Source of the DNA: a virus
DNA: 43,045 nucleotides
Strand: one strand, 5' to 3'
Virus record (IMG/VR): IMGVR_UViG_3300046780_000143
Location: 1-43,045 of that record
The position numbers and the translations under genes are program-made. Position 1 is the first letter of the stretch; the number at the start of each line of letters is the position of its first letter. A model generated the notes under the pieces. It was not told where the DNA came from. It searched no databases and saw only the letters and a list, made by a program, of their open reading frames with translations. Of the stretch, positions 3,692-42,408 are shown piece by piece.

Positions 3692-4112
3692 CGCGTGGGT
3701 CCTACGCTATCGCGGGGGTGCATCCCGCGTAGTGGCATTGTAGCTGCTGCCGCACGGAACGGGACTCCGGCGCGGGAAGGACACCCCCTCCCCCTGCCCC
3801 CGGCCGAGGGGGGGACCCCCGCCCTAGTAGACGCAAGGTGAGCGCCCCTTAGACACTAGCCCACTAACTAGGGTTGGCGAACCTAGCCCGATAACTACTA
3901 CATTCGCATGTATTGGGCTAGGTAATGGGCCAGCCGCGCTAGTATAGGGGTTGTGGGCTAGGCTGGCGACGCGCCTTGCGCTGCCCGGCAGCGTCGGCCG
4001 CCGCTGGCGCGCGCGACGGGTCACGGGGTGAAAGCGTCGATCTAAGCCGCGCGTATGCGCGAAGGCGCACGCGAGGCCGCGACCCTGCGACAGCCTGCCG
4101 CAACCATGCCGC
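3692..4112. promoter_or_regulatory. Gene-free control region between late (minus) and early (plus) blocks, with CTAGCCC sites
   Basis: No convincing gene lies here. From 3770 to 3840 there is a C/G-rich tract. From 3840 to 3965 the composition turns AT-richer and holds four CTAGCCC/GGGCTAG sites: 3856-3862 (forward), 3882-3889 (forward), 3915-3922 (reverse) and 3955-3962 (reverse). The middle two form a 13-bp-arm inverted repeat (3881-3893 with 3911-3923, one mismatch). CCCTTAGACA at 3846-3855 recurs at the start points of downstream early promoters. It is probably an operator cluster; an origin role is possible but unsupported. Confidence 0.5.
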
Positions 4113-4141
4113 TTGACCATAGCCCGTAATCCCCTTAGACA
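4113..4141 (+). promoter_or_regulatory. Early promoter with TAGCCC site
   Basis: TTGACC at 4113-4118 is followed by TAGCCCGTAAT and CCCCTTAGACA. A -10 with 17-bp spacing would be TAGACA, which is weak. The TAGCCC box and the CCTTAGACA start-region string match the better promoters at 4932 and 6866. It precedes the first gene of the early block. Confidence 0.45.
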
Positions 4142-4189
4142 TTGTGGACCGAAACGAAACGCGGCGCCGCCGCACAAGGGATGCTCAAG

Positions 4190-4573
4190 ATGACTAAGCT
4201 CGAAACCGCCAAGGCTGAAATCCGCGCCATTTTCGCCAATGAGGTCTATTGCTTCGATGAAGTCGAAGGCCGCCCCGAACGTTCGACCCTGGTCATTTTC
4301 ACCCGCACGGTTCGCCTTGCCGGGATGAACGCCGCCGAGGGCAAAACCTGCGTTTCCACCATCACTTACGCAATCCACCGCGACGGCTACTGGGAACAAA
4401 TGGGCGCCTATAACGGCCCCTGGGAAGCTCCGGCGCGTGAGGCCCGCAACTGCGTCAGCGTTCCGGCCGGTTGGCAGTCTGCCGACGCTGAGGGCGCGCT
4501 TTTCGGCCCGGCTTTCAACGATATCGGCGACCTGTGGCAGTGGCAGCGCCACTATGCCGGACGCTGTAACTAA
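4190..4573 (+). CDS. Early protein of unknown function (first gene of early block)
   Basis: 127 aa, not recognised. It looks like a soluble alpha/beta protein. It starts with a charged helix (LETAKAEIRAIFANE), then a strand-rich section (RSTLVIFTRTVRLAG), and ends with a Trp-rich tail (LWQWQRHYAGRC). I chose the ATG at 4190 over the in-frame ATG at 4181 because AAGGG lies 9 nt before 4190 and directly abuts 4181. The start carries the shared GGATGCTCA leader. It is followed by an 87-nt spacer rather than an overlap. Confidence 0.65.
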   Translation: MTKLETAKAEIRAIFANEVYCFDEVEGRPERSTLVIFTRTVRLAGMNAAEGKTCVSTITYAIHRDGYWEQMGAYNGPWEAPAREARNCVSVPAGWQSADAEGALFGPAFNDIGDLWQWQRHYAGRCN

Positions 4574-4660
4574 CCTAACCCCGGTCTGCGAGCGGTCGCG
4601 CCTGCGGCCGTTCGCTTCATCCGCTCGCAACGCTCCAACCCATAACAAGGTTCCCTGACC

Positions 4661-4912
4661 ATGACTCAAGAAATCATCGCCGCGTCCGCTTACTGGGCGT
4701 CTTACCTTTGTAATAACGACGCATCGGGCCTGACCGATGCCGAGCTTGCGACGGCCGACGCTTGGCTAGTCGCGCATGGCCTAGAGCGCGCCGATTTCTG
4801 GTTTGACTCCGAGCCCTACTTTTCATGGTCCTATGGCTTCCACACGGGCGCCGACTGCCGGGGCGGCGATCTGCTGGATTACATCGTTACGCGACGCCGT
4901 GAGGTCGCCTAG
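4661..4912 (+). CDS. Small acidic early protein of unknown function
   Basis: 83 aa, acidic and aromatic. A helical N-terminal half (LTDAELATADAWLVAHGLER) is followed by FHTGADCRGGDLLDYIVTRR. The latter resembles the C-terminal pattern of small phage and plasmid proteins of unknown function, but I cannot name a family. AAGG lies 10 nt before the ATG. This leader (AAGGTTCCCTGACC) differs from the GGATGCTCA class. Small size and acidity would suit an anti-defence or mimic protein, which is speculation. Confidence 0.6.
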   Translation: MTQEIIAASAYWASYLCNNDASGLTDAELATADAWLVAHGLERADFWFDSEPYFSWSYGFHTGADCRGGDLLDYIVTRRREVA

Positions 4913-4931
4913 GCCTGCGGCAATCTGACCA

Positions 4932-4960
4932 TTGACCGGCTGCCCGGCATAGCCCATATT
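4932..4960 (+). promoter_or_regulatory. Early promoter with CATAGCCC site between -35 and -10
   Basis: TTGACC (4932-4937), 17-bp spacer, CATATT (4955-4960). The spacer ends in CATAGCC, so the repeated site runs into the -10. The 25 bases ending at the -35 (4913-4937) match 5849-5873 at 22 of 25 positions. It drives the gene at 4996. Confidence 0.65.
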
Positions 4961-4995
4961 CCCTTTAGTGAAATCGACCTAAGGAACCCAGACCG

Positions 4996-5244
4996 ATGAA
5001 ATTTGAAGTGATCGAGTCGCGCCAGTGGCGCCACGCGTCCGGCCGCACCGCCTCAATCTATGGCGCCTGCCCCTGGGTCGCCGAGGCTGACCGGCCGAAC
5101 TGGGAAATTGTCTCGCGCGGTTGGACCGTACGGAATCCCTACACCGGGCAAGTTGGCGCCTGCCGCCAACCCTTCGCGACGCGCGCCGAGGCTGAAGCCT
5201 TCGCCGAACGCGTCATGCCTTCGCGCATCGGTTACGGCGACTGA
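4996..5244 (+). CDS. Small early protein of unknown function
   Basis: 82 aa, not recognised. It has a mixed beta-like body with Trp residues (WEIVSRGWTVRNPYTG) and ends with a helix (TRAEAEAFAERVM). It has AAGGAAC upstream and sits just downstream of a good promoter. The next gene starts 2 nt after the stop. The pattern of a beta hairpin followed by an AEAFAE helix is common in small phage proteins with an ATPase-independent fold. No function is assigned. Confidence 0.6.
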   Translation: MKFEVIESRQWRHASGRTASIYGACPWVAEADRPNWEIVSRGWTVRNPYTGQVGACRQPFATRAEAEAFAERVMPSRIGYGD

Positions 5245-5246
5245 CC

Positions 5247-5510
5247 ATGGCGCCCCCGCTCAGCCTGACTCAGGCCTTAGTCCGCTATGACCGACTCCAA
5301 TCCGCGAAACGCGGATATAACCCGCACGCGCTCGGAATCTACCTACAGCGCGCCGAAGAAATTGAAGCGGCCGTTGCGCGCGGCGCCGAGCTTCGCGCCG
5401 AAATCTGCCGAGGCTTCACTGACCGATTGCGCGACTCCGTTCTGCGAAACATGGGCCTCGCGCCCCTGGGCGAGCGCAGCACGGCCGCGACCTATCGGCC
5501 GGGCGCCTAG
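5247..5510 (+). CDS. Small helical early protein of unknown function
   Basis: 87 aa, almost entirely helical, with an Arg/Glu/Ala-rich middle (LQRAEEIEAAVARGAELRAE). Its ATG comes two bases after the previous stop, and its stop TAG touches the ATG of the next small gene, so three genes (4996, 5247, 5511) are chained. A 258-nt frame on the same strand, starting at 5287, overlaps it. I prefer this frame because of the spacing with both neighbours. Confidence 0.5.
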   Translation: MAPPLSLTQALVRYDRLQSAKRGYNPHALGIYLQRAEEIEAAVARGAELRAEICRGFTDRLRDSVLRNMGLAPLGERSTAATYRPGA

Positions 5511-5642
5511 ATGCGCGCCCTGCTCGCCGCTCTGGCTGACCTGATTGACCCGCCCGGCCGTGCGCGCCGCGCGCGCCAGCGGCGCCGCATCGCCCACCTT
5601 CAGGCGCGGTACGCCGCGCGCCTTCGCCGACTCACGCGATAA
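5511..5642 (+). CDS. Very small arginine-rich protein
   Basis: 43 aa, with about a third of residues Arg. It starts directly after the stop of the previous gene (TAGATG) and ends 6 nt before the next ATG. An amphipathic hydrophobic start (ALLAALADLIDP) is followed by a run of Arg-rich helix. It may bind nucleic acid, but composition in GC-rich DNA can produce Arg-rich frames by chance, so its reality rests on the gene chaining. Confidence 0.4.
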   Translation: MRALLAALADLIDPPGRARRARQRRRIAHLQARYAARLRRLTR

Positions 5643-5648
5643 CGCAAC

Positions 5649-5840
5649 ATGCGCTACACTGAAACCCGCCTGCTAAGGGCTAGGATCGAAGAACTGGAAT
5701 CGGCGAACATGCGTCACCAACAAGAGATTCGCCTTGCCCCTTGGCAAACTGTCGCGGCAGCCGCGACAGCCTTTGCTGGAGTCTTCGCGGCGGGCGCCGC
5801 TGTCGGCGCCTTTTTCCTCGCCTACTTCACCCACCACTGA
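5649..5840 (+). CDS. Small membrane protein with coiled-coil N-terminus
   Basis: 63 aa. Residues 5-30 form a charged helix with heptad spacing (RLLRARIEELESANMRHQQE). Residues 34-60 form one membrane segment rich in Ala/Gly/Phe (VAAAATAFAGVFAAGAAVGA). The shape is that of an N-in cytoplasmic coiled coil plus a single anchor. It could be a single-span holin or spanin-like helper, or a superinfection-exclusion protein. The ribosome site is weak (ACGCAAC). No family was recognised. Confidence 0.55.
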   Translation: MRYTETRLLRARIEELESANMRHQQEIRLAPWQTVAAAATAFAGVFAAGAAVGAFFLAYFTHH

Positions 5841-5867
5841 AATCTGAGGCCTGCGACAATCTGACCG

Positions 5868-5896
5868 TTGACTCAGGCCTCAGATAGCTCGATAAC
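5868..5896 (+). promoter_or_regulatory. Early promoter for the ArdC-like gene
   Basis: TTGACT (5868-5873), 17-bp spacer, GATAAC (5891-5896). The spacer ends ATAGCTC, a variant of the TAGCCC site. The upstream 25 bases are a near copy of those before the 4932 promoter. Confidence 0.6.
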
Positions 5897-5939
5897 CCTA
5901 TAGTCATTTGTAACCCACCGACCCGACAGGATGCTCACC

Positions 5940-6833
5940 GTGAAAAACGACGTTTTCCAGCAGATCACCGACTCGATTATCGCCCAAATGGAGGACGGCG
6001 TTCTCCCCTGGACTCAGCCATGGCGCGAGGGCGCCAGCGCTGTCGGTTCGGCGACCATGCCGCACAATATCCGAGGGCGGCCCTATCGCGGCGCGAACGC
6101 CTTTTGGCTTGACCTGATTGGCAAGAGCCGGGGTTACGCTCGCCCGGTCTGGCTGACCTTTAATCAGGCGAAAGAGGCGGGCGGTAGCGTTCGCAAAGGC
6201 GAAAAGGGAACGCCGGTCTTTTTCTGGAAATTCGATAAGAAACTGAACACCGTTACGCAGAAATTCGAGCAAACGGTGTTCGTCAAGGGCTACACGGTTT
6301 TCAACCTTGACCAGTGTGAAGGCGTCGCCTGCCCTGAGCCGCGCGCAAGGCCCTTGCAAGAGCGTGTGGAGGCTGCCGAAGCGCTCGCCGCTGCGACTGG
6401 CGCCCAGATCACCTACACCGGCGCCCGCGCCTTCTACAGCCCGCATTTCGACTCCGTGCAAATGCCGGAACGCGGGTCGTTCAAATCGGCCGACGGCCTT
6501 TACGGAACGCTGTTCCATGAACTCGGGCATTGGACCGGCCACGAGTCGCGGCTGGCGCGCGAATTCGGCCGCCGCTTCGGCGATCAGGCTTACGCCTTTG
6601 AGGAATTGGTTGCCGAATTGACGGCCGCCTTCATCTGCGGCTCGCAAGGCTTCACGGCGCCCGCGAGGCCCGATCACGCATCCTATATCGCCAATTGGCT
6701 TAAGGTGCTGAAGGGTGACCCGCGCGCCTTCATTACGGCCGCCAGCGCAGCCCAGAAAGCGGCCGATTTCATCCTCGCGACCCAGAGCGCCGAGGATGAG
6801 CTTGAGCCTGCCGAGGTCGCCGAGGCGGCCTAA
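5940..6833 (+). CDS. ArdC-like antirestriction protein (ssDNA-binding domain plus zincin-like peptidase)
   Basis: 297 aa. The N-terminal third matches the ArdC/TraC1-type DNA-binding domain: DVFQQITDSIIAQMEDGVLP, then PWREG and GRPYRGANAFWL, and KGEKGTPVFFWK. The C-terminal half is a zinc metallopeptidase-like domain with HELGH at about residues 193-197 and a downstream acidic helix (AFEELVAELTAAFICG) that would supply the third ligand. Family members protect incoming phage or plasmid DNA from host restriction, so early expression fits. I chose the GTG at 5940 because it sits after the shared AGGATGCTCACC leader exactly where other genes start; ATG 5931 would leave no room for a ribosome site. 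Confidence 0.88.
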   Translation: MKNDVFQQITDSIIAQMEDGVLPWTQPWREGASAVGSATMPHNIRGRPYRGANAFWLDLIGKSRGYARPVWLTFNQAKEAGGSVRKGEKGTPVFFWKFDKKLNTVTQKFEQTVFVKGYTVFNLDQCEGVACPEPRARPLQERVEAAEALAAATGAQITYTGARAFYSPHFDSVQMPERGSFKSADGLYGTLFHELGHWTGHESRLAREFGRRFGDQAYAFEELVAELTAAFICGSQGFTAPARPDHASYIANWLKVLKGDPRAFITAASAAQKAADFILATQSAEDELEPAEVAEAA

Positions 6834-6865
6834 GCCGGTGCGGCGCCCTGTCGCAGCTTTCGAGC

Positions 6866-6894
6866 TTGACGGGGCGCCCTACCTAGCCCAATAT
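6866..6894 (+). promoter_or_regulatory. Early promoter with CCTAGCCC site
   Basis: TTGACG (6866-6871), 17-bp spacer, CAATAT (6889-6894), then CCTTTAGACA as the likely start region. CCTAGCCC at 6882-6889 bridges spacer and -10. It drives the pair of small genes at 6928 and 7092. Confidence 0.65.
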
Positions 6895-6927
6895 GCCTTT
6901 AGACAAAACGAACCGAGGACAACCCGA

Positions 6928-7095
6928 ATGAACCGCCCCGAAATCGCCCGCGCCCTCGCGAAAGCCATGGCGCACAAACAGGCCGGAAACGACGCCCTGG
7001 CCGCCCAGTGGGCAGGCTACCTGCTCTGCCTGCTTGAGGTGCAGGATATCGTCGCCGCCTCCGATTTCCACCAGACGACGGCGCCCGCGCGGTGA
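6928..7095 (+). CDS. Small helical early protein of unknown function
   Basis: 55 aa, mostly one or two helices (EIARALAKAMAHKQAGNDAL then WAGYLLCLLEVQDIVAASD), with the look of a TPR-like helical hairpin. GAGGAC lies 10 nt before the ATG. It is overlapped by the next gene as GTGA, so the two are probably co-translated. Confidence 0.55.
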   Translation: MNRPEIARALAKAMAHKQAGNDALAAQWAGYLLCLLEVQDIVAASDFHQTTAPAR

Positions 7096-7208
7096 GCGCT
7101 CAGCCGCTTCGCCGCTGCCTCGAATGCGAGGAGCTTTTCGCCGATCACGACGACAGCCGGGGGGATTGTCCCTTCTGCGACTCGCCGAACACCGAACGCT
7201 TCGAATAA
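7092..7208 (+). CDS. 38-aa zinc-ribbon mini-protein
   Basis: 38 aa starting at a GTG that overlaps the previous stop (GTGA). Two CxxC knuckles are visible: CLEC at residues 9-12 and CPFC at 26-29. This is the ligand set and spacing of a minimal zinc ribbon or rubredoxin-like fold. Such mini-ribbons often bind a partner protein or nucleic acid. The paired knuckles and coupled start make a real gene likely despite the size. Confidence 0.6.
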   Translation: MSAQPLRRCLECEELFADHDDSRGDCPFCDSPNTERFE

Positions 7209-7239
7209 CCCCGTTCACCGACCTAAGGATGCTCACCCT

Positions 7240-7482
7240 ATGGCCTCTCGCCCGTTCCAACTCCTGCCGCTTTACCTGCGTCACGAACCTACGACCGACC
7301 GCGTTGTCATCGAACGCGACCCGGAAATGGCGAAGCGCTGCCTAGACGTTGTGGCCTATCGTGACCCGGAAATGACCACAGTCGCCGCGCGCTGGGCGTG
7401 GTGGCAGACCCGGCCGCGCCGCAACGCGAAGTCGGTTACGTTCAACTGCTACCGCTGGCGCGCTGTCTGGGCCGCCGAATAA
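7240..7482 (+). CDS. Small basic early protein of unknown function
   Basis: 80 aa, basic and Trp/Arg-rich at the C-terminus (RWAWWQTRPRRNAKSVTFNC). It is preceded by a full form of the shared leader: CCCGTTCACCG, then CTAAGGATGCTCA, then 4 nt to the ATG. Charge and aromatic content would suit nucleic-acid binding, but no known domain was recognised. Confidence 0.6.
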   Translation: MASRPFQLLPLYLRHEPTTDRVVIERDPEMAKRCLDVVAYRDPEMTTVAARWAWWQTRPRRNAKSVTFNCYRWRAVWAAE

Positions 7483-7510
7483 CAACCCTCACCGAACAAG
7501 GATGCTCAAA

Positions 7511-8053
7511 ATGTCTGCCAACCAATGTTCGACGACCCACATTCGCGCGCTGGTTTCCGCCGCGATGCGATGGGACACCTACAACACCGTTCCGCGACCG
7601 CCGGTCGCCATGATGGAGCGCCACCCTGAGGCCTTTAAGCATCTGCTCCGCGCTGGGCCTTCGCCGCTCAATTCGAACTGGGTCAAGACCTACCCCGACG
7701 AGTTCGGCCGCGCGCTTGTGCTGGCGAACCTCGACTCGCTGAACGCACGCTACCCGGCGCACGCCGACCCGGAATCCGATGCGGCGTGGGTCGCCGATTT
7801 CCGCCACGCGCACACCGATCACGAGCCGCTGGCGATGATCAAGAACGCCGATTATTTCGCCTATCAGTCCTGCGAGGTTTCCGACTGGGAATCGTGTTGG
7901 GCGAACGCGGCCTATAAGGCGCTTCGCGAATGTGCGATCAGCGCCGCGACCAGCCGCGAGCCCTGGGGGATCGCAGACCCGGCTGGCGGCCCGCTTGAGC
8001 CGGGCAAGGCGGGCGCCCCGGTGTCCCTTCTGGCCCTGTCACGCAAGGCCTAG
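7511..8053 (+). CDS. Conserved-looking early protein of unknown function
   Basis: 180 aa. The middle contains NADYFAYQSCEVSDWESCWA followed by a helix (YKALRECAISAA). This resembles a pattern common in small uncharacterised phage and plasmid proteins (Y-x-Y-Q-S-C-E...W), though I cannot name the family with confidence. I chose the ATG at 7511, which follows the AAGGATGCTCAAA leader with normal spacing, over the ATG inside the leader at 7502. It is followed by a 115-nt gap with two hairpins. No function is assigned. Confidence 0.65.
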   Translation: MSANQCSTTHIRALVSAAMRWDTYNTVPRPPVAMMERHPEAFKHLLRAGPSPLNSNWVKTYPDEFGRALVLANLDSLNARYPAHADPESDAAWVADFRHAHTDHEPLAMIKNADYFAYQSCEVSDWESCWANAAYKALRECAISAATSREPWGIADPAGGPLEPGKAGAPVSLLALSRKA

Positions 8054-8071
8054 CCTGACAGTTTGTCGCAT

Positions 8072-8144
8072 GGCCCGCAGCACTTTAGAGGTTGCGGGCC
8101 TAGGCAAGGCGCGTTAGAACAGTCTCACACCGGGGCGACGCCCC
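8072..8144. other. Two hairpins in the gap between early genes
   Basis: 8072-8079 pairs with 8093-8100 (GGCCCGCA/TGCGGGCC). 8132-8137 pairs with 8139-8144 (GGGGCG/CGCCCC). Neither is followed by a T-run, so these are not classical terminators. They could be RNA-processing or pausing sites. CTTTAG and CCTAGG occur in the same gap, but no good -35/-10 pair was found. Confidence 0.4.
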
Positions 8145-8168
8145 AAGCTCAAACAGGATGCTCAACAG

Positions 8169-8447
8169 ATGCCCGACGCCCTCGAAACCGCCCGCCTCGC
8201 GCTGGCCACCAACCTGCCGCAAGGCGACTCCAAGGTGGGCCGCTACACAGTCAGCCTGACCGCCGAATGCGACCCGAACGACCCGCAGCGCGGAGCTTGG
8301 GTTGACTGTTGGGTCACGTCACCGGGCGGCGGCCATACGAACTCGCTCGCCTGCCTTGAAGGCGAAGGCCGGTTCGATGACGGCCCGACAATCAGCGAGG
8401 CCGCTATCGACCAGATCACGGCGTTCGCCCAGAAGCACGGCTACTGA
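8169..8447 (+). CDS. Small acidic early protein of unknown function
   Basis: 92 aa, acidic, apparently beta-rich in the middle (SKVGRYTVSLTAECD, WVDCWVTSPGGGH) with a closing helix (AAIDQITAFAQKHG). It has the shared leader (AGGATGCTCAACAG before the ATG). It is not recognised. An acidic beta protein made early could be a DNA mimic or inhibitor, but nothing specific supports that. Confidence 0.6.
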   Translation: MPDALETARLALATNLPQGDSKVGRYTVSLTAECDPNDPQRGAWVDCWVTSPGGGHTNSLACLEGEGRFDDGPTISEAAIDQITAFAQKHGY

Positions 8448-8463
8448 GAAAGGATCGCAGACC

Positions 8464-8688
8464 ATGGTTATCTCAGACTCGAAGACCGGCGAGGCCTTCC
8501 GCGCCGAAGTGCTGGCCGAAATCGACCGGCGCCTGACCTACATTGCATCGGACGCCAAGCACGCGCGGACGCAGCGCGACCAGAAGGCCGCGACAGCGCG
8601 CGGCGGGGAGCTTCGCGACTTGCGGGCCTTCCTGGCGTCGATCACCTTTGCCGATCTGCCGAAGGGCGGCGAACCGGCGTTCTCCTAA
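8464..8688 (+). CDS. Small helical early protein of unknown function
   Basis: 74 aa and highly helical. A long charged region (IDRRLTYIASDAKHARTQRD) suggests a helical hairpin or coiled-coil dimer. It has AAAGGA about 9 nt before the ATG and starts 17 nt after the previous stop. It is not recognised. Confidence 0.55.
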   Translation: MVISDSKTGEAFRAEVLAEIDRRLTYIASDAKHARTQRDQKAATARGGELRDLRAFLASITFADLPKGGEPAFS

Positions 8689-8715
8689 CCACCGTCACCG
8701 AAAGGGATGCTCACC

Positions 8716-8895
8716 ATGTCGCTAGATCAATTCAGCAAAGGCCAGCGCGTGACCTACACCGGCGCCGCCCACGGTCGCACTGGCCAATCGGGGACCGTCA
8801 TTCGCCCGGTCAAGTCGCGTAACGTCGTTACGCTGCGCTGGGATAACGACGGTAGCTGGTTCGACGCCAGACCCGCCAACCTGCAACCCGCCTAA
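8716..8895 (+). CDS. Small SH3/KOW-like beta-barrel protein
   Basis: 59 aa. The pattern F-S-K-G-Q-R-V-T-Y followed by GRTGQSGTVI, then VVTLRWDNDGSWFDARPANL, is that of a five-strand SH3-like or KOW barrel, as in many small phage proteins. It starts at the second ATG after the shared leader (AAAGGGATGCTCACC). Such barrels bind nucleic acid or protein tails; the target is unknown. Confidence 0.6.
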   Translation: MSLDQFSKGQRVTYTGAAHGRTGQSGTVIRPVKSRNVVTLRWDNDGSWFDARPANLQPA

Positions 8896-8923
8896 CCCCG
8901 TTCACCGAACAAGGATGCTCAGT

Positions 8924-9337
8924 ATGCAAACGATCACAGCCGAACAATTCGAGTCGATGCGCGAAATCTGGCGGGCCGACATGCTCTATCAGATGGACCG
9001 CATAATGGAGCGGCTAGACCGCCGCGCCCACCCGCTGAACTTCGGCGACGACCCGCCCGGCGCTACCGATGGCGATCTGCCCGGCCTGTTCAGGGTCCTC
9101 GACGCTCAGCTAGTGCGGAACCTTGCGCGGGCTGGCGTCACCGTCGAAGACGCCGAGCGCCGCGACGATCCGCTGGACACCCTGGCGGCCCTCTATCGCG
9201 ACTTCACCGGCCCGAACACCGACGAGTCGATCCGGCGCGGCCCGCACGTCGCCCTGATCGCCCGCACGCTTACCGAGAACGGCCGCAGCCTCACCGAGCT
9301 TCAGGAGGCGGCCGACCAGCGCTGGAAAAGCCAATGA
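8924..9337 (+). CDS. Helical early protein of unknown function
   Basis: 137 aa, helical throughout and acidic. The N-terminus has AEQFESMREIWRADMLYQMD and the C-terminus RTLTENGRSLTELQEAADQR. It carries the full shared leader (CCCGTTCACCGAACAAGGATGCTCA, split here as CCCGTTCACCGAAC plus AAGGATGCTCA). The next gene overlaps its stop by ATGA. It is not recognised. Confidence 0.6.
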   Translation: MQTITAEQFESMREIWRADMLYQMDRIMERLDRRAHPLNFGDDPPGATDGDLPGLFRVLDAQLVRNLARAGVTVEDAERRDDPLDTLAALYRDFTGPNTDESIRRGPHVALIARTLTENGRSLTELQEAADQRWKSQ

Positions 9338-9588
9338 GCCGCCAGCCGCCCAGCCTCGCGCCTGACCTCAGCCGCAAGCCCGCTGCGGTCTACAGGGTGA
9401 GCCGCGAACTGCCCTATTCCGTTCGCGTGTTGGAAGTCGAGAAGAACGGCCGCCCGCTCTGCGTCATCACCGAACCGACCCTAGAGCTAGTCGCGCTGCC
9501 CGGCTCGCTGAGCGGCGAGGATGGCGAAGGAGTCGCCGAGGCGGTCTTCGCCTACCTGATCGCCGAGGAACAGGCCTCGTTCGAATAA
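9334..9588 (+). CDS. Small early protein of unknown function
   Basis: 84 aa with a beta-rich middle (ELPYSVRVLEVEKNGRPLCV) and an acidic helical end (EAVFAYLIAEEQASFE). It is coupled to the previous gene by ATGA. It is the last gene before the strong operator-flanked promoter at 9633. Confidence 0.55.
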   Translation: MSRQPPSLAPDLSRKPAAVYRVSRELPYSVRVLEVEKNGRPLCVITEPTLELVALPGSLSGEDGEGVAEAVFAYLIAEEQASFE

Positions 9589-9612
9589 CACCGTTCGCGC
9601 ACAATGTCGCAT

Positions 9613-9661
9613 CCTAGCCCATAATTCGCCGATTGACGTGGTTATGGGCTAGGCCTATAAA
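9613..9661 (+). promoter_or_regulatory. Strong early promoter flanked by a perfect 12-bp inverted repeat operator
   Basis: TTGACG (9633-9638), 17-bp spacer, TATAAA (9656-9661). A perfect inverted repeat, CCTAGCCCATAA (9613-9624) with TTATGGGCTAGG (9642-9653), places one arm upstream of -35 and the other inside the spacer against the -10. This is a classical arrangement for repression by a dimer that bridges the two sites. Confidence 0.75.
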
Positions 9662-9710
9662 GGGGATGCGTTCGGCGATGGGCCGGGCGACGAAAAGGAT
9701 GCTCTTTCTC

Positions 9711-10175
9711 ATGACCGAATTTTCAATCGAGGCCTCGCCCGGCCAACGCTTGCGCGTCGGCTGGTCCGACGAAAACGGAAACTCCTACTGGTTTCAAGCC
9801 AAGGTTAACGGCGACCAGATCACCGAGGTTGGCGGTTCGACCTACCGGAATCGACCGACGATCTTTCAGCGCGGCGCGACGATCCGGCGCGGCCCCGGTG
9901 CGGGCATGTCCTACCACGACGCCAACGCCGAGCCGTGGGCTTCGCTGGTCGCCGAGGCCAGCGCCAAGGTCGCAGCGGGCAAGCTCGCCACGGCCGCGTT
10001 CGCCGCCAAAGCCGCCCACGACGCCGACCGCACCGCTGAGACGATCAGGGGCAAGGCTCAGGCCGTTCGCGCGGCCCTGCTGTCCGTCAAGGTGGCGGCC
10101 GTGGAAGCCCTCGCCGACGTGCCCGACGCGGCCCTGGCCGAGGTCTACGACCGCATTCAGAACGGCGCGATCTAA
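9711..10175 (+). CDS. Early protein of unknown function with alanine-rich helical C-terminus
   Basis: 154 aa. Residues 1-70 look like a beta domain (QRLRVGWSDENGNSYWFQAK). Residues 80-154 are a long Ala/Lys/Glu helix (AAGKLATAAFAAKAAHDADR and onward). The start at 9711 follows AAAAGGATGCTCTTTCTC, a variant of the shared leader. It heads a run of six tightly overlapping genes (9711-12645) driven by the operator-flanked promoter. It is not recognised. Confidence 0.6.
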   Translation: MTEFSIEASPGQRLRVGWSDENGNSYWFQAKVNGDQITEVGGSTYRNRPTIFQRGATIRRGPGAGMSYHDANAEPWASLVAEASAKVAAGKLATAAFAAKAAHDADRTAETIRGKAQAVRAALLSVKVAAVEALADVPDAALAEVYDRIQNGAI

Positions 10176-10438
10176 TGACCTTCAAGAGCCCAACCCAGCC
10201 CTACTGCCGCTGCTGCGGCGGCCCGATCCGCGCGCCACAAGGAACCCAGCCAATGAGCGAGGAACAGCGCGAGCGCCACGCCGCTGCCGCCGAGGCCATA
10301 ATCGAGGCGATCTACTGCAACGCCATGTCGCTGAGCGCCGACGTTCGCAGCGGGTCAAAGCTGACGCCTGACCAGCGCCGCAAGCTGAATCAGGCGCGGC
10401 GCGAAATCGAGTTTATCGTTGAGGAAACCGCCCGATGA
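10175..10438 (+). CDS. Small zinc-knuckle and helical protein
   Basis: 87 aa. It begins with a short Cys cluster, YCRCCGGPI at residues 9-17, then has a helical body (ERHAAAAEAIIEAIYCNAMS, RRKLNQARREIEFIVEETAR). Its start overlaps the previous stop (TAATG) and its stop overlaps the recombinase start (ATGA). Only one CxxC-type knuckle is seen, so metal binding would need a partner or dimer. Confidence 0.55.
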   Translation: MTFKSPTQPYCRCCGGPIRAPQGTQPMSEEQRERHAAAAEAIIEAIYCNAMSLSADVRSGSKLTPDQRRKLNQARREIEFIVEETAR

Positions 10439-11037
10439 GATTCGCCTATTACCGGGTCAGCAGCGCTGACCAATCCATCGAAGCCCAGCGCGCCGAGCTT
10501 GGCTTTGTCCTGGGCAAGGACGCCTTGGAGTTCCATGATGAGAACGTCTCAGGCGTGATCCCGATGCTCAAGCGGCCGGGCTTCGGCGCCATGGCTGCGA
10601 AGGCCCGCGACGGCGACACGATCTGCGTTGCGGCCGTTGACCGGCTGGGGCGGGACGCCATCGACATTCAGACCACCGTCCGCGCCCTCATCGACTCGGG
10701 CGTGATCGTTGACGTGAAAGGCCTTGGCCCCATCGGCCGGGGCGCTGGCGAAATCGTCCTGGCGGTGCTGGCCCAGGTCGCCGACATGGAACGCCGCCGC
10801 ATCTGGGAACGGTCGCAATATGGGATCAAGGTCGCGAAGGCCTCGCTACTGGCGACCGGCAAGACGCACAACGGCAAGGCCGGGTTTGGCCGCCCGGTGT
10901 CGGCCGACGCTCAGACCGTCGCCCAGTGGCGGCGCGAGCATGACGCCTCTATCAGCGCCACGGCCCGGCAGTTCGGAATCGGGGTTTCGACCGTCAAGCG
11001 CTACTGCGCCGAAGCCGCCGATCTGAAGGCTGCCTGA
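10435..11037 (+). CDS. Serine recombinase (resolvase/invertase family)
   Basis: 200 aa, the usual length for small serine recombinases. The catalytic N-terminus reads FAYYRVSSADQSIEAQ with the nucleophile Ser at about residue 9. It is followed by VDRLGRDAIDI and a long E helix (EIVLAVLAQVADMERRRIWE). The C-terminal 45 residues form a Hin-type helix-turn-helix (ISATARQFGIGVSTVKRYC). It may resolve multimers, invert a segment or act as a regulator. The genome also has a tyrosine integrase, so it is unlikely to be the integrase. No pair of inverted crossover sites was found. Confidence 0.9.
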   Translation: MRFAYYRVSSADQSIEAQRAELGFVLGKDALEFHDENVSGVIPMLKRPGFGAMAAKARDGDTICVAAVDRLGRDAIDIQTTVRALIDSGVIVDVKGLGPIGRGAGEIVLAVLAQVADMERRRIWERSQYGIKVAKASLLATGKTHNGKAGFGRPVSADAQTVAQWRREHDASISATARQFGIGVSTVKRYCAEAADLKAA

Positions 11038-11948
11038 TGCTGGCCGATCAACTGCTAGAGCCGAACCCCGAGCTTTCCGAAATGACCTTCGGCAGGCTCG
11101 GGGCCTATCAGGCGCGGCTGAGGGAAGCGCACAAGTTCACCCTTGATCGCTCAATCGGCGAGGTCGCGGGCGACATGCCGCGAGCCGCCGTGCGCGACAC
11201 CCTGCCGTTCTGCCGCCTGCCTTATCCGATCTGCTGGCTAGAGATTGCCCAGCAGGATCGGCCGTTTTTCGCCGACGCCTTCACCCATGGCCCGAACCAC
11301 TCGGGCGGGCGCACCTTTCAGCCGGTGCGGGTCGGCATCCTCTGTGAACAGCAGGGCGACAACCCGCAGCGGTTCTGGGCGACCTTGGCTTGGAGCTACA
11401 GCACCGCCGACCAGTTGACCCAGGGCCTCGATAGCCCGCTTTCGATCTGTCCGGCTGGCGTGTCGATCTGGTGTGACGAACCGGACCCTGAGCTTAACGA
11501 ACCCTTCCTGCTGACCATGACCATTGCGCCCTACTGGCGCGAGACGATGCTGAAGATCGCCGCCACGGCTCCTGAACTTGCCGAGGAGCTAGGCCGCAAC
11601 GCGAACCACGACTGGGCTGGCGAGCCGTGGTTCTGGCTGGCGGTGATGGCCCTGCTCAACGCGAAGAACGGCGCAAGCTCCGAATTTCGCCCGGCGCCCG
11701 CCAAGCTCAATAAGAGCCGCGCAGAGCGGGGGAAGCCGCCGCTGGTAGACTACCACCAGCTAACCCTTCGCATCGGCCCCAGGGCGCGCGCTGAGGCCGG
11801 GGCGGGGCATTCCAGATCAGGGCACCGGGCGCATACCGTTCGCGGCCACTTCAAGATCAGGAAGACCGGGATTTACTGGTGGCGGCCGTTCATCCGGGGC
11901 GAGGTCGCCGAGGGCTTCGCGAACAAACGCTACAAGGTGAAGCTGTGA
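11037..11948 (+). CDS. Conserved phage/prophage protein of unknown function
   Basis: 303 aa. The C-terminal third carries the pattern LNKSRAERGKPPLVDYHQLT, then SGHRAHTVRGHFKIRKTGIY, then WWRPFIRGE. This is familiar from uncharacterised proteins of alphaproteobacterial and pseudomonad prophages. The His/Arg-rich RGHF-type motif looks like a nucleic-acid-binding or catalytic patch, but the family has no established function that I know of. It is one nt from the recombinase and overlapped by the HTH gene (GTGA). Confidence 0.75.
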   Translation: MLADQLLEPNPELSEMTFGRLGAYQARLREAHKFTLDRSIGEVAGDMPRAAVRDTLPFCRLPYPICWLEIAQQDRPFFADAFTHGPNHSGGRTFQPVRVGILCEQQGDNPQRFWATLAWSYSTADQLTQGLDSPLSICPAGVSIWCDEPDPELNEPFLLTMTIAPYWRETMLKIAATAPELAEELGRNANHDWAGEPWFWLAVMALLNAKNGASSEFRPAPAKLNKSRAERGKPPLVDYHQLTLRIGPRARAEAGAGHSRSGHRAHTVRGHFKIRKTGIYWWRPFIRGEVAEGFANKRYKVKL

Positions 11949-12376
11949 TCGACCTGTCGCTCGCAGACCGGCTGCATCAGGCGCGGATCAACGCCGGATA
12001 TGAGACGGCGAAGGATTTCGCCCTCGCCCACGGCTTCAAGATTTCGACCTATACCCAGTGGGAGAAGACCGGCTCGATGACCATTAAGGCCTGCAAGTTA
12101 TGTGCGGCGGCCCTGAAGGTGTCACGCTGCTGGCTGACGTTCGGCGACGAATCCGACCCGCCGTGGTTTAAGGAGGTTCGGACGCTGACCCAGGAAATTG
12201 CTGACCGGGCTGGTGGCGTCGGCGAGCTTGCCGAGGCTTTGGGCGTCGATTATGGCACGGCGAAGTCCTGGGTCCGGCGTGACGCGATCCCGGCCGACTA
12301 CTGGCTGGCCTGCGACAGGCTCAAGCTCGCGACCCTCAAGCAACTGGCGACCCACCGGGCCAAGGTGAAGCCATGA
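11945..12376 (+). CDS. Two-domain helix-turn-helix regulator (XRE-like plus YdaS/Cro-like)
   Basis: 143 aa from a GTG that overlaps the previous stop. Residues 5-60 form an XRE-type HTH (LADRLHQARINAGYETAKDF, then ISTYTQWEKTGSMTIKACKL). Residues 85-130 form a second HTH of YdaS/Cro type (AGGVGELAEALGVDYGTAKS, then WVRRDAIPADYW). The second half is clearly related to the 70-aa protein at 21547. One chain thus carries two different DNA-binding folds. A role in repressing the early block or the control region is inferred. Confidence 0.75.
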   Translation: MIDLSLADRLHQARINAGYETAKDFALAHGFKISTYTQWEKTGSMTIKACKLCAAALKVSRCWLTFGDESDPPWFKEVRTLTQEIADRAGGVGELAEALGVDYGTAKSWVRRDAIPADYWLACDRLKLATLKQLATHRAKVKP

Positions 12377-12645
12377 AGGATTCCGAGCTTATGGCCGTGA
12401 TCTTCACCACCGAGGAAGCGCCCGGCGCGTGGCCAAACGGGACGCCGGTCTGCAAGGTCAACAGTCAGCCGGGCGACGCCACGCCAGACGGGACGATAGG
12501 CCTTGTCCTGGGCAGCATCGCCGCGCCGCCGCTGCCGGGCTTCGGCTATTTCGTGATCTGGGCGACCCGCCCAGGCGTCCCGGTGTTCTGCGCCGACACC
12601 AACCGGGACGGCACGCCCAGGCTGCGCCTTGACAACCTTCAGTAG
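12373..12645 (+). CDS. Small protein of unknown function ending the early operon
   Basis: 90 aa, apparently a compact beta protein (GTPVCKVNSQPGDATPDGTI, GFGYFVIWATRPGVPVFCAD). It is coupled to the HTH gene by ATGA and followed after 53 nt by a strong terminator. Its fold resembles small SH3-like phage proteins, but the family is not certain. Confidence 0.6.
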   Translation: MKDSELMAVIFTTEEAPGAWPNGTPVCKVNSQPGDATPDGTIGLVLGSIAAPPLPGFGYFVIWATRPGVPVFCADTNRDGTPRLRLDNLQ

Positions 12646-12698
12646 AGGGCACAACCTCCCGACCTTCTGCCGACCTCTCAGTCTGCGGAGCCCCTTGA

Positions 12699-12742
12699 AG
12701 CCCCCTCAGCATCATCCCCCCGATGCGCTGAGGGGGCTTTTT
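12699..12742 (+). terminator. Rho-independent terminator of the early operon
   Basis: A 12-bp perfect stem (12699-12710 with 12727-12738, AGCCCCCTCAGC/GCTGAGGGGGCT) is followed by TTTTT. Confidence 0.92.
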
Positions 12743-12817
12743 GTTGCCTGTCTCAGAACGTCGTTCGGTGAACCCGGTGTCACCGTTACGCATCGAGCAA
12801 CGATAACAATGAGCATA

Positions 12818-12846
12818 TTGAAGTAGTTATCGAAGTGTGCTATAAT
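12818..12846 (+). promoter_or_regulatory. Near-consensus sigma-70 promoter of the lone gene at 12903
   Basis: TTGAAG (12818-12823), 17-bp spacer, TATAAT (12841-12846). The surrounding 60 bp are distinctly AT-rich compared with the genome. There is no CCTAGCCC site, so this gene appears to escape the control placed on the other early promoters. Confidence 0.85.
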
Positions 12847-12902
12847 AGTCGCATGGGCGGGATTGGCCCGACCCAGGTCTTTGACAAGTTAGGATGCTCT
12901 AC

Positions 12903-13139
12903 ATGAAGTCCAACAGGACTATCGCGGTTAGCCGTGACTACTACACGGTCAACGTTGCTTATTCGATCAAGGGCAAAAAGCGGAAAGAGTTTCACGAACT
13001 CATGAAGCGGATTGAACCTGATCTGTATAAGCGGACGCAATCGCGTATGACAAAGCCGCAGGCCGAAGCCCTGGCCGATCTGCTGCGGCGCTGGGATATC
13101 CCGGTTGAGGTCAACCAGACCGCAGACCTGAGCTTCTAA
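12903..13139 (+). CDS. Lone small basic protein with its own promoter and terminator
   Basis: 78 aa, basic. The first half is strand-like with Tyr residues (VSRDYYTVNVAYSIKGKKRK). The second half is helical (MTKPQAEALADLLRRWDIPV). It starts after the shared leader (AGGATGCTCTAC before the ATG). It stands alone between the early terminator and the end of the terminase gene, with a consensus promoter in front and a terminator behind. This layout is typical of a moron or of a lysogeny-expressed gene. It is not recognised. Confidence 0.7.
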   Translation: MKSNRTIAVSRDYYTVNVAYSIKGKKRKEFHELMKRIEPDLYKRTQSRMTKPQAEALADLLRRWDIPVEVNQTADLSF

Positions 13140-30614: not shown

Positions 30615-32833
30615 TTCAGCCTCACCTGCTTACCGCCCCGCAACGTCCACTGCTGGTTGTTCTTGAACGTCGTGACCTTGCCTTCCTGAAGCGCCGAAGC
30701 TGGCGGCGTAGACGCTGGCGGCGCGGCAGGAGCGGCAGGCGCGGCAGGAGCCGCAGGCTCAGCAGCCGGGGCAGACCCGACCCCACCCCGAATGTGCGAC
30801 CGCAAGCCTTCGTTCACGTCCTCCATGGAACTCGTGCGGTTCCGCATTTCCTGCTTCATGGTGGCAATGCCGCCCGCCAACTGGCCCTGAGAGGCGTACT
30901 TGCTGAGCCGGTCGTAGGATTCCTTCCGCGCCGCATCGGTGGTTCCCTGACCGCCATTCGAGCCGACGACGACCTTCGTATACTCGTCAAGGAAGGTCCC
31001 CAGGGCCACGTCGAAGCTGGTGACGTTCGGATCGCCAGCTATGGCGCGACGGCCGGTCTGAACCCACCGATTCAGCACGTTATTGTTGAACTGGGCAGCG
31101 CCAGCCGGGGCAAGCTTCAGAGCCAGATCGGCGTTCTTTCCGGCAGTGTCCTCATACCCCTTGATAGCCGCCAGATTCGTCGTGTTCTTGGTCAACGCCG
31201 CAGCGGTCGCCTTAATGTCGGCCACCCCCGAAACCAGATCAGCGGCGGTCAGGCCAAGCGACTTCATCATGTCAGAGGCCTTGTTGAGAATCTTCGTCTT
31301 GGCGAGGCCCTTGTTATCCCGCATCTGCGGCAGCGTGCCGTCCTTAATGTAGCGCCCGGCCAACATAGTCGCGGCGTCGTCGGTTAGCTCGATATCCTTC
31401 TCCTCCTCGCCAGCCCCCGGCTTGAACCAGTGCTTGCCCTTCGGCGCCGGTCCCAGTTGCTTAAGCTCCTCAGCCGTCAGGCCGTTCTGCATCGGCTCCG
31501 TCGCCGCCGCTGGCTGAGCCGCCCCGGCCGCCGCTGGTGCGCCGCCACCCGCAAACTGCTGCTGAAACTGCGCCGCAACCTGCCCAGCCGTCTTTCCGGC
31601 CACGCGGTTAATCAACGCCGTGTGCGCCCCGACCAGCGACTCCATCGGCGTGTCCGGTGCGCTCTGGGCGGCCTTGATGATCTTCACCGCCCCAACCGGG
31701 CCGTAGCCATGCGCCATCCCCAGCGAGGCCGCATCCGGCGTAATTCCGGCCGCCTGTAGGATCGGGGCGTTCATCGCCGCGTAGGACGCAATCGCCCGGT
31801 TGGCGATTTCCGGGTTCGCGCGCATGGCGAGGATTTCGGCGTCCGACTTCCCAGCGATATCCTGGGCGAACTGCGGATCGTTCCGCATCACGTCGAACCA
31901 CGTCCCCTTGCCCTTGCCCTGGGCGTCCAGCCTGCCGAGGAACTGACCGACCCCCGCTGCGCTCGAATTAGGGTTCTGGGCGGTCCCCTCGCGCTTGCCG
32001 ACCGCCGCCTGATAAGCGGCTGGCTGCGCCCCGGTCGGCGCGGTCGGCGCGGCTCCCCCAGCCGGGGCGGGCGCAGCGCCCCCAGCCGGTGCGGTCTGAT
32101 CGCCACCGCCGCCGCCCTCAGCGTCGTCCATCAGGTAGATTTTGTCCTTGGTGTCGAACTCCTGCGGCTTGCCCGCCTTGACCTCTAGCGACTTCTCGCC
32201 GGTCGCCTTGTTCACCCGCCAAATGTTGCCCAGATCATCCTTCTGGAACGACCAGTTGGCGCTGTCGGCGAACGCCTTGATCGTCTGGGCCGCGCCCATC
32301 GGGCTCAGCGACAGCTTGGCCTGCGCCGCAAGCTGCTGCCGCAAGGTCAGATACTTGTCCTGATTGAAAGTGCGCCGCCCGGTCTTGGGGTCCGTATCCC
32401 AGGCCCCATTGAACGCCTGACTGTCGATCTGCTGGCCAAGCTGCTGCTGCTTCACAAGCGCCTGTTTCTGAGTACGGTCAGTAATCCCTTGGAAGTAGGT
32501 CCCCTCGCCGCCGATATCGCCCTTCAGGCCCATCGACGCGCCAATCAGCCGGTCGGCGAACGTCGCCCCGCCGCTGTCCGTCCCGAATAGTCCGCTCCCT
32601 ATGCGGGACAGCAGCCCGCGCTTCGGTTTTTCCCCGGCCGCCGCCGTCGCCTCTGGGGCGGCTTCCACTGCCGACGCAGCCGGGAACGACCCGGGCGGCT
32701 CATCGCCGGGCGTCGGCTCCTCGGGCTGGTCAGGCTGGTCGCCCTGAAGGCCGTTCAGCAGCCCGTCGCCGACCTGAGTGTCAAAGAACCCGGGGTCTTC
32801 CTGATCGTCTTCAATCGGCTTCAGAAGACCCAT
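30611..32833 (-). CDS. Virion protein with lytic transglycosylase-like domain (ejection protein)
   Basis: 740 aa. Residues about 275-420 form a transglycosylase-like domain: AAVGKREGTAQNPNSSAAGV then GQFLG, AQDIAGKSDAEILAMRANPE and LGMAHGYGPVGAVKIIKAAQ. The Glu in KREG is the candidate catalytic acid. Flanks are Ala/Gly/Pro linkers and a long helical C-terminal part. It would open the peptidoglycan during DNA entry. It is one of the three large ejection-type genes. It is also the only muralytic domain seen in the genome, so it might serve lysis too, which is speculation. Confidence 0.78.
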   Translation of the reverse strand: MGLLKPIEDDQEDPGFFDTQVGDGLLNGLQGDQPDQPEEPTPGDEPPGSFPAASAVEAAPEATAAAGEKPKRGLLSRIGSGLFGTDSGGATFADRLIGASMGLKGDIGGEGTYFQGITDRTQKQALVKQQQLGQQIDSQAFNGAWDTDPKTGRRTFNQDKYLTLRQQLAAQAKLSLSPMGAAQTIKAFADSANWSFQKDDLGNIWRVNKATGEKSLEVKAGKPQEFDTKDKIYLMDDAEGGGGGDQTAPAGGAAPAPAGGAAPTAPTGAQPAAYQAAVGKREGTAQNPNSSAAGVGQFLGRLDAQGKGKGTWFDVMRNDPQFAQDIAGKSDAEILAMRANPEIANRAIASYAAMNAPILQAAGITPDAASLGMAHGYGPVGAVKIIKAAQSAPDTPMESLVGAHTALINRVAGKTAGQVAAQFQQQFAGGGAPAAAGAAQPAAATEPMQNGLTAEELKQLGPAPKGKHWFKPGAGEEEKDIELTDDAATMLAGRYIKDGTLPQMRDNKGLAKTKILNKASDMMKSLGLTAADLVSGVADIKATAAALTKNTTNLAAIKGYEDTAGKNADLALKLAPAGAAQFNNNVLNRWVQTGRRAIAGDPNVTSFDVALGTFLDEYTKVVVGSNGGQGTTDAARKESYDRLSKYASQGQLAGGIATMKQEMRNRTSSMEDVNEGLRSHIRGGVGSAPAAEPAAPAAPAAPAAPPASTPPASALQEGKVTTFKNNQQWTLRGGKQVRLK

Positions 32834-40041: not shown

Positions 40042-41097
40042 TTACGGCGTGAACGTCGGGGCGACCAGCGTCCCGAAGTCCGCGTTATTGAAGCGAAGCT
40101 TCTTCAGACCATGGATAAGCCCGGCCTCGACGCCAAGTTTGTTTCCATAGTCGAATAACTCCTCATTCCAGTCGAAGTTGTTGAACGACTGTCCTTTGCC
40201 GAAGGCAATGACCCCGGCCTGCGCGCCCAGCAAGACAGCGCGGCGAACGCCCGCGACAGTCGCACCGGTCCCCGCGTTGACCCCGGCCGTGATGCGCGTG
40301 CTTTCGTGCAGGACAACGCCGTTATACATGCCGAGCGCGCCGGTCATGATCGGGTTGCCACTAGACCCGTCGCCGGTCATCGCGGCCTTCTGGATATCAA
40401 GCCATTGGCCCGTCCCGACATTGGTCCGAAGCTGCGTCACTTGGTTCGTGTGCAGCACCATCGCGTAGCGGTCGTCGCCGTCGATCTTGATAGGCCGGAT
40501 GACCGGGGTCATCAGCTTGGCCTGCGCCACCAGCGAGTCGATGATCGCTAGGGTGAACTCGTCACCCGCCGCCAAGGTCTGATCGTTCGCCTTGGCGTTC
40601 GGCCGGAAGACGTGTGCGGCGTCGGTGGCAATCGGCGGGTTCATGCCGGTGTAGCGCGGGTCCACGACCACCGTGTAGCCGCACATTTGGTTGAAGAAGG
40701 CCGTATCCATGCGGCCCGCCCACCAATCCTTCAGGCCGAGCATCGCTTCTTCGCGGATCGACCACGGAATGCGCTGCTCGGTCATCTTGCCCGCCGACTT
40801 CACGGCATGGCGTAGCTGGTCGATGAACAGGTCATCGGTGTAGGTCGCGAGGGCTTCTTCATTGCCCTCAAGCGTGGCGTCGCCAGACACCCCATCGCCG
40901 GTCAACTGCATCCGCAGGGTGACACGAACGCGGTCCCCGCTGTCCTTCTTCGTGTCATCGAAGGTTTGCAGAATGTCGTCGGACGAGTCGCCGATAAAGC
41001 GCTGAATCCACGTCGCTTTGAGGGCTTCGCGAGCGAGTTGTGACGACCAGAGCTTCTTCGCTTCGGGTGCGTTCACGCCATAGGCGGTTTCGGCCAT
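40042..41097 (-). CDS. Major capsid protein, N4-gp56 family
   Basis: 351 aa. The N-terminus has KKLWSSQLAREALKATWIQR then FIGDSSDDILQTFDDTKKDS. The middle has QLTGDGVSGDATLEGNEEAL and HAVKSAGKMTEQRIPWSIRE. The end has NEELFDYGNKLGVEAGLIHG then LKKLRFN. This is the HK97-fold N4-gp56 family signature. The start lies after a leader with five hairpins. The order scaffold, capsid and decoration-type genes is canonical. Confidence 0.92.
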   Translation of the reverse strand: MAETAYGVNAPEAKKLWSSQLAREALKATWIQRFIGDSSDDILQTFDDTKKDSGDRVRVTLRMQLTGDGVSGDATLEGNEEALATYTDDLFIDQLRHAVKSAGKMTEQRIPWSIREEAMLGLKDWWAGRMDTAFFNQMCGYTVVVDPRYTGMNPPIATDAAHVFRPNAKANDQTLAAGDEFTLAIIDSLVAQAKLMTPVIRPIKIDGDDRYAMVLHTNQVTQLRTNVGTGQWLDIQKAAMTGDGSSGNPIMTGALGMYNGVVLHESTRITAGVNAGTGATVAGVRRAVLLGAQAGVIAFGKGQSFNNFDWNEELFDYGNKLGVEAGLIHGLKKLRFNNADFGTLVAPTFTP

Positions 41098-41404: not shown

Positions 41405-41538
41405 GGGGCGACCGGATCGGCCCGCCAGCCGGAACGCTGCTACCCACGGGAGGGAGACGCGCTCGGCTGACGGGCTCTGTCAGGATGCTCAAGTCACCGA
41501 CAGCGCCGATATAGCGGCGTTCCCGGCCTCGGCCAAGG
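41405..41538. other. Gap between scaffold and the small Cys-rich gene
   Basis: 134 nt with no gene I can support. On the plus strand it contains AGGATGCTCAAG (about 41482-41493), like the early leader, but no frame follows, so I take it as chance or a relic. The capsid ATG is thus 441 nt after the scaffold stop (TGA at 41539). Confidence 0.4.
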
Positions 41539-42408
41539 TCAGTGACCCCGTTCACGTTGCCGCAGCTTCGCGAACGCCGCGTCCCGCGCCGCGCCCTTAA
41601 GCTTGGCGACCGCCCCCCAGGTGAGGCCGTTGTCAGGCCCCTTGCCGCGCGCCGTGGCCGTGCCGTTCGACGCAGCGGCCCCGGCCGCCAGCTTCTTCAG
41701 CTTGTCGGTGGTGGCCTTCTCCCCGGCCTTGAACCCCCGGCGCTTCGCCAGCGCGTAGACCCGTTCAGCCGGGTCCTGCCCGGCCGCGATCATGTCGCGG
41801 GTCATGCCGAACAGTTCGTCGGCAAGCTTTTCTTCCAACTTCCGGCCGACGTAGCCCAGGTCTTCAAGCTCGGCCCGCCGCTGGTCGCGAACGTAGTCAG
41901 CGGCCTTGTAGTAGTCGGGGGCCTCGGCGACGAAATCCTTCTCGTAGGCGTCCATGGTCGATAGCAGGACATTGGTCTGCTTGACATGCTGCTGGCGCTG
42001 GCCCGACGCCTTGGCGTCGTCGGCCTGCTGCTTCATGAAGGTCTTCAGGACGCGCTTGATCTGGTTGAGGTCGGTGATCGGTTCGTCGTCATCGTCGCGA
42101 AGGCTGGCGATCAGATCGGACAGTTCGTCACGCTCGCCGCCGCTGACCTTGGATTCGAGCGCTTCGAAGCGCTGCTGAAGCTCGCTGAACTGGCGTTCGG
42201 CGGCGCGGCGCTTCGACCGTTCCTTGGCGGCGAGCCCGGCCTTGTCGTGGGCCTGAGCCTCGGCGCGTTTGACCCGCGCCGCCGCCTCATCCTCGCCGTC
42301 TTCCTCGCCTTCCTCGCCCTCGGATTCCTGTTCTTCGGCCTCGGTTTCGGCGTCCTCGCCTTCCGGGGTTTCGGTTTCGGGGTCCGGTCTGACTTCGGCT
42401 TCACTCAT
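41539..42408 (-). CDS. Capsid scaffolding protein
   Basis: 289 aa. A strongly acidic N-terminal region (TEEQE/EDGE-rich runs) is followed by a basic helix (AKERSKRRAAERQFSELQQR). A long helical centre (YEKDFVAEAPDYYKAADYVR) and a basic C-terminus (GAARDAAFAKLRQRERGH) complete it. Acidic plus coiled coil with a basic, capsid-binding end is the usual scaffold build, and it is immediately upstream of the capsid gene in transcription order. No protease is seen nearby, as in P22. Confidence 0.78.
   Translation of the reverse strand: MSEAEVRPDPETETPEGEDAETEAEEQESEGEEGEEDGEDEAAARVKRAEAQAHDKAGLAAKERSKRRAAERQFSELQQRFEALESKVSGGERDELSDLIASLRDDDDEPITDLNQIKRVLKTFMKQQADDAKASGQRQQHVKQTNVLLSTMDAYEKDFVAEAPDYYKAADYVRDQRRAELEDLGYVGRKLEEKLADELFGMTRDMIAAGQDPAERVYALAKRRGFKAGEKATTDKLKKLAAGAAASNGTATARGKGPDNGLTWGAVAKLKGAARDAAFAKLRQRERGH

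Follow-up and report, generated by a model that had tools for sequence, protein, structure and literature searches.

The Start-Associated Sequences (SAS/ESAS) of cluster K mycobacteriophages have a 13-bp consensus, GGGATAGGAGCCC, and four cluster K phages also carry one reverse SAS that lies away from gene starts (Pope et al. 2011, PMC3203893). The role of SAS was called ill-defined or in need of verification in papers from 2024 and 2025 (PMC11373665, PMC12699233). Here we describe a comparable leader, GGATGCTC(A), in a 43,045-nucleotide viral genome (IMG/VR record IMGVR_UViG_3300046780_000143, positions 1 to 43,045, the whole of which is referred to as the window), together with a conserved hairpin encoded by the same phage and antisense to the leader. 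The sequence comparisons suggest that this leader is probably the shared target of a phage-encoded antisense RNA that shuts off the early genes together.

In bacteria, anti-Shine–Dalgarno loop small RNAs use a CU-rich hairpin loop to pair with the Shine–Dalgarno sequences of several mRNAs, and they depend on the general CCUCC motif. Among phages, the base-pairing RNAs given as examples in PMC12197685 include OOP and aQ of lambda, sar and sas of P22, 24B_1 of phi24B and VpdS of VP882; P22 sar interferes with the initiation of ant translation, and most of the RNAs named there are cis-antisense to one gene. No phage small RNA with many shared leaders was found in the literature searched.

A sequence-only reading of the window had reported one translational leader before at least nine early genes, including a lone gene at 12903, and all nine copies were confirmed at their positions (Table 1). 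GGATGCTCW has ten matches in the window, all on the plus strand, versus 0.60 expected (100 dinucleotide shuffles, the largest of which gave 3), and GGATGCTC, with 13 plus-strand copies versus 0.53 expected, is the most over-represented 8-mer. The GG lies 11 nt from the start codon in six of the copies, 13 nt in two (7227 and 8156) and 14 nt in one (9697); eight of the genes start with ATG and the one at 5940 with GTG. The upstream arm attributed to four of the copies is present but inexact (7227, CCGTTCACCGACC; 7500, CCCTCACCGAAC; 8705, CCGTCACCGAAA; 8913, CCGTTCACCGAAC); its exact form also precedes an unrelated gene at 1994 in G002, a sister phage, and G010 has a similar one at 764. The proposal that ribosomes might start at the ATG inside the motif did not hold: this ATG shares the frame of the gene in seven of the nine copies, but at 7227 and 8156 it does not and leads into reading frames of just 38 and 33 codons, so it cannot be a general start. 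The tenth match, at 41483, was missing from the earlier list and is followed by no gene start.

The same 8-mer stands before early genes of close relatives identified by capsid or ArdC (eight in G002, eight in G010, five in G011, eight in G009 and five in G005). With the window phage, this gives six related phages and 43 leader genes, which fall into 33 unrelated protein families. Start codons lie 10–15 nt downstream of the leader across these phages, a spacing that likewise excludes the internal ATG. Some orthologues retain the leader, among them the ArdC genes of G002, G009 and the window. When words associated with starts were sought blind, GGATGCTC emerged in 6/6 leader phages, whereas the other relatives tested yielded nothing comparable. 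The leader is all-or-none: exact copies are many at open reading frame (ORF) starts, and one-mismatch copies are near background, at about 2.6 per genome with every ORF start counted. The base preceding GGA may be A, G, C or T while TGCTC is invariant, which upholds the earlier claim that conservation reaches well past the Shine–Dalgarno. A shared TCACCGAAC-type arm precedes 8 of the 43 leaders.

More distant relatives are without the leader, it was not found before the starts of phages with related ArdC genes (L005–L022, L159–L184), and Brevundimonas phage Domovoi and Caulobacter phage phiCbK have no match to GGATGCTC at 11-nt spacing. (One whole-record search required exactly this spacing and so under-counts; the per-phage counts above come from full lists.) A DNA search of all viral contigs with arm plus leader returned only the window phage, its sister and single matches in two very large contigs. 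As a separate observation, contig G012 (L124/L125) has a leader-like copy, GGATGCTCCGATG, at 11427 on the minus strand, directly before a 415-aa tyrosine-integrase-like gene, and no other leader.

The tenth match proved to be a reverse copy that recurs at the same place in relatives. Read on the late-gene strand it is GA(C/T)TTGAGCATCC, or GAYUUGAGCAUCC as RNA, and it sits in the first of two hairpins just past the stop codon of the scaffold-like gene and ahead of the capsid gene. Every leader phage encodes one such hairpin there; the element occupies the same place in 12 distinct phages, with one per phage, and was absent from all tested relatives without the leader. It matched no family among the Rfam 15 models. 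The element precedes a small gene and the capsid gene, and the next ORF start is an ATG at 41404, about 80 nt downstream. A small RNA was among the partners that the sequence-only reading had offered for the leader, and the phage has now been found to encode a conserved antisense hairpin of its own; for an altered ribosome, another of its suggestions, we found no evidence. Two contigs, L036 and L038, have GAGCGTCC where others have GAGCATCC, an A-to-G change in the core; this G remains able to pair with U in the leader, so no leader change is required. A variant leader suggested by that change, GGACGCTC, gave single matches only among the matches listed, and both contigs lack early genes. G011 (L117) also has a second reverse copy, GATTGAGCATCC, at 19334 on the plus strand, which has no good hairpin.

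Across the 12 phages the core is 89% identical and the flanks 30–33%. The element folds mostly as two hairpins, hairpin 1 being less clear in L046 and L037. Exchanging 5′ and 3′ arms between phages never reached the true pairing energy, for hairpin 1 (0/20,000 permutations) or for hairpin 2 (0/20,000), and these comparisons argue that the element is a conserved RNA structure whose stems vary yet stay paired. A column-based consensus fold and covariance model found no pairs, because stem registers differ between phages; we relied on the arm-swap tests instead. By z-score, folding favours the late strand over its complement in 11/12 phages, and the late strand has 66 G–U pairs versus 33, which indicates an RNA antisense to the leaders rather than a copy of them. 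Contiguous pairing between the element and individual leaders spans 8–13 pairs over the 43 leaders. Upstream, a CTTGG–19 nt–TA block is invariant and gap-free in 12/12 phages; in the window, where it falls past the stop codon, its conservation cannot be put down to coding. From this promoter-like block, transcription would be predicted to begin at the base of hairpin 1, near 41501.

Taken with its place in the late operon, for which early-gene shut-off at the late switch is the simplest programme, the element points to the following mechanism. The hairpin would be transcribed once late transcription begins, by its own promoter or inside the late mRNA. Its UUGAGC loop, a six-base seed, would nucleate on GCUCA(A) of the leader and then zip into GGAU, and the pairing would cover the GGA Shine–Dalgarno and extend to the bases ahead of the start codon. 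Binding of 30S subunits would thereby be blocked, and every early gene with the leader would be silenced together at the early-to-late switch. On this model the 'extra' conserved TGCTCA would be the seed-pairing site of the RNA and no part of the ribosome site; pairing with the loop RNA would explain why TGCTC is fixed but any base is tolerated ahead of GGA.

Two traits of trans-acting antisense RNAs are found here, complementarity to several ribosome sites and a conserved RNA structure. Like the phage base-pairing RNAs of PMC12197685, this would be a phage RNA pairing with the phage's own mRNA, as predicted from sequence; unlike most of those described there, one RNA would face at least nine unlinked leaders with a purpose-built site in common. 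In contrast to the anti-Shine–Dalgarno loop small RNAs, loop and leader share the specific extra TGAGCA/TGCTCA, which makes the leader set private to the phage.

The arrangement resembles SAS in three respects: a short asymmetric leader in which a Shine–Dalgarno part is joined to conserved bases unable to pair with 16S rRNA; many copies in one orientation just before the starts of non-structural genes of many unrelated families; and, for K1 only, one lone reverse copy located in a hairpin loop. It differs in its sequence, GGATGCTC(A) rather than GGGATAGGAGCCC, in phage group and host, and in having no counterpart of the ESAS, 17-bp inverted repeats that precede about half of the SAS copies, only the minority arm described above. 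The system thus appears to be laid out like SAS and is predicted to act like a phage small RNA, without being SAS by sequence.

We also compared the cluster K hairpins. The lone reverse SAS in 4/4 of those K1 phages lies within a long hairpin, in its 10-nt loop CCTCCTATCC, and blastn located the K1 hairpin region in 128 phage records. In nine representative K hairpins 97% of stem cells are paired, and both bases have changed in only two of the pairs. According to published RNA-seq, late transcription in Adephagia begins between genes 92 and 93 (PMC11373665), a gap that holds the anti-SAS hairpin on the same strand (match 58644–58732). The product of Adephagia gene 39 has an Hfq-like fold match (DALI z 8.8; PMC11373665) and is a possible RNA chaperone partner. 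That gene (L306, 1345–1743) is itself preceded by SAS. Pixie (L308) has, at about 30800–30850, a long and almost perfect hairpin; on the gene strand its loop is GGATAGGT, SAS in the sense and not the antisense direction.

Several observations weigh against repression of the leaders by the proposed antisense RNA. A strict scan called neither a promoter nor a terminator at the element, so a separate small RNA is not established. Swapping RNAs between phages costs little leader pairing, with 48 of 720 assignments as good, so clear co-evolution of leader and RNA flanks is not seen. The element of G011 has a shorter match to the leader (GACGAGCATCC, 8–10 pairs), and the early regions of both phages with the variant core, L036 and L038, are missing from their contigs. 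Elsewhere in cluster K than in K1, Pixie has SAS and no exact anti-SAS in the stretch examined, SirPhilip keeps SAS and the same hairpin but with another loop and no exact anti-SAS, and the Amohnition loop is short of one base. These counter-examples make the cluster K parallel a strong lead, not proof.

An ordinary ribosome-binding site, with the leader merely the Shine–Dalgarno and spacer preferred by the phage group or its host and spread by shuffling of leader-gene cassettes, is unlikely. The leader does hold (A)GGA at normal spacing, and parts of the upstream arm also move between genes. Nevertheless, the invariance of TGCTC irrespective of the base before GGA and the lack of graded variants are hard to reconcile with such a site, which would also leave the conserved antisense hairpin unexplained. 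The earlier reading had named general use of the leader by host genes as a refutation, and we found no enrichment in about 370 bacterial genomes, drawn from the order and class of the single metagenome-assembled genome that carries a related phage; this speaks against an ordinary site, although the true host may lie outside that sample, a limit that also qualifies the comparison with SAS, which are absent from host genomes.

Reading of the leader by a phage or host RNA-binding protein, with the element near the capsid gene as a decoy or second site, is similarly improbable. A short fixed motif at many starts is what known translational repressors recognize, and the plus strand of the element reads GGATGCTCAAATC; against this, better folding and the excess of G–U pairs fall on the strand antisense to the leader, the element is flanked by late-strand genes and preceded by a conserved block, and no candidate protein was identified. 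We consider it still less likely that the relationship runs in reverse, with the element acting in cis in the late mRNA and early leaders or mRNAs controlling late expression as a sponge or timer, or with pairing that activates. The position in the late operon, upstream of the small gene and the capsid gene and with no terminator, would suit such an arrangement, whereas the pairing covers the Shine–Dalgarno of the leaders and stands away from late-gene starts. Retention of the 13-nt core for some other reason is very improbable, since by a simple count only about one 13-mer in 10,000 would happen to contain the complement of any given 8-mer, and a tiny conserved peptide, D-L-S-I/V in one frame of 11/12 phages with GAT and GAC synonymous, is ruled out as its explanation by conservation limited to four codons amid stops and unrelated residues and by stem arms that co-vary as RNA. 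The leader is thus not well explained as an ordinary ribosome site, and its best-supported partner is the phage-encoded antisense hairpin RNA.

The genome in which these features lie (record G000) has an exact 127-bp terminal direct repeat at 1–127 and 42919–43045, indicating that the record is probably a complete circular map; contig L003 bridges both window ends by coordinates, which fits such a map. Terminase and head proteins are carried on the minus strand and the early block on the plus strand. The nearest cultured-phage capsids, at 46–48% identity, come from Rhizobium and Paracoccus phages, and the closest cultured-phage relatives of the ArdC-like protein (5940–6833) are in Brevundimonas jumbo phages, where they are annotated as DNA primase. 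A strong terminator-like hairpin (CCCCCTCAGCATC...GATGCGCTGAGGGGGCTTTTTG) at 12690–12750 ends the early block ahead of the lone gene; a near-consensus promoter, TTGAAG–17 nt–TATAAT, lies at 12818–12846, about 45 nt 5′ of the leader of that gene. TAGCCCATA-type strings are repeated in the early intergenic regions 4100–4145, 4930–4990, 6885–6910 and 9600–9660, beside TTGAC-like hexamers, and are possibly early promoters or a repressor site.

Table 1 Positions of the leaders, the antisense element and neighbouring features in the window
Feature	Position	Strand	Remarks
Leader GGATGCTCA	4179..4187	+	before ATG 4190; 127 aa gene, function not assigned
Leader GGATGCTCA	5929..5937	+	before GTG 5940; 297 aa, ArdC-like antirestriction / DUF1738 relative
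Leader GGATGCTCA	7227..7235	+	before ATG 7240; 80 aa; internal ATG out of frame
Leader GGATGCTCA	7500..7508	+	before ATG 7511; 180 aa; relatives in G010 and G009 likewise leader-bearing
Leader GGATGCTCA	8156..8164	+	before ATG 8169; 92 aa; internal ATG out of frame
Leader GGATGCTCA	8705..8713	+	before ATG 8716; 59 aa
Leader GGATGCTCA	8913..8921	+	before ATG 8924; 137 aa
Leader GGATGCTCT	9697..9705	+	before ATG 9711; 154 aa
Leader GGATGCTCT	12892..12900	+	before ATG 12903; 78 aa, lone gene
Integrase	26169		
Major head protein gene	40042..41097	-	phrog_334; downstream of antisense element
Hairpin 2, long G+C-rich stem	41419..41475	-	
Hairpin 1 (CTGTCGG U GACTTGAGCATCC TGACAG)	41477..41503	-	antisense core in loop and inner stem
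Antisense core 5'-GACTTGAGCATCC-3'	41483..41495	-	complementary to leader
Promoter-like block TTGGCC-17 nt-TATATC (tentative)	41508..41536	-	upstream of hairpin 1; conserved
Scaffold-like late gene	41539..42408	-	no family match; named for its place before the capsid gene

No function has been assigned to SAS-type leaders since they were described in 2011, and a paired antisense hairpin offers a concrete, testable job for them. We raise, tentatively and at somewhat less than even likelihood, the idea that unrelated phages have independently built an RNA operator/repressor regulon, in which private leaders are paired with one antisense hairpin heading late transcription and the early-to-late switch is made by RNA at translation; this would explain SAS, at least in K1. 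Such RNAs could be sought by scanning hairpin loops for a single reversed copy of a leader that recurs at starts. If the hairpin has the role proposed, a single RNA silences entire groups of early genes in some phages, and a new gene enters the regulon merely by gaining a short leader.

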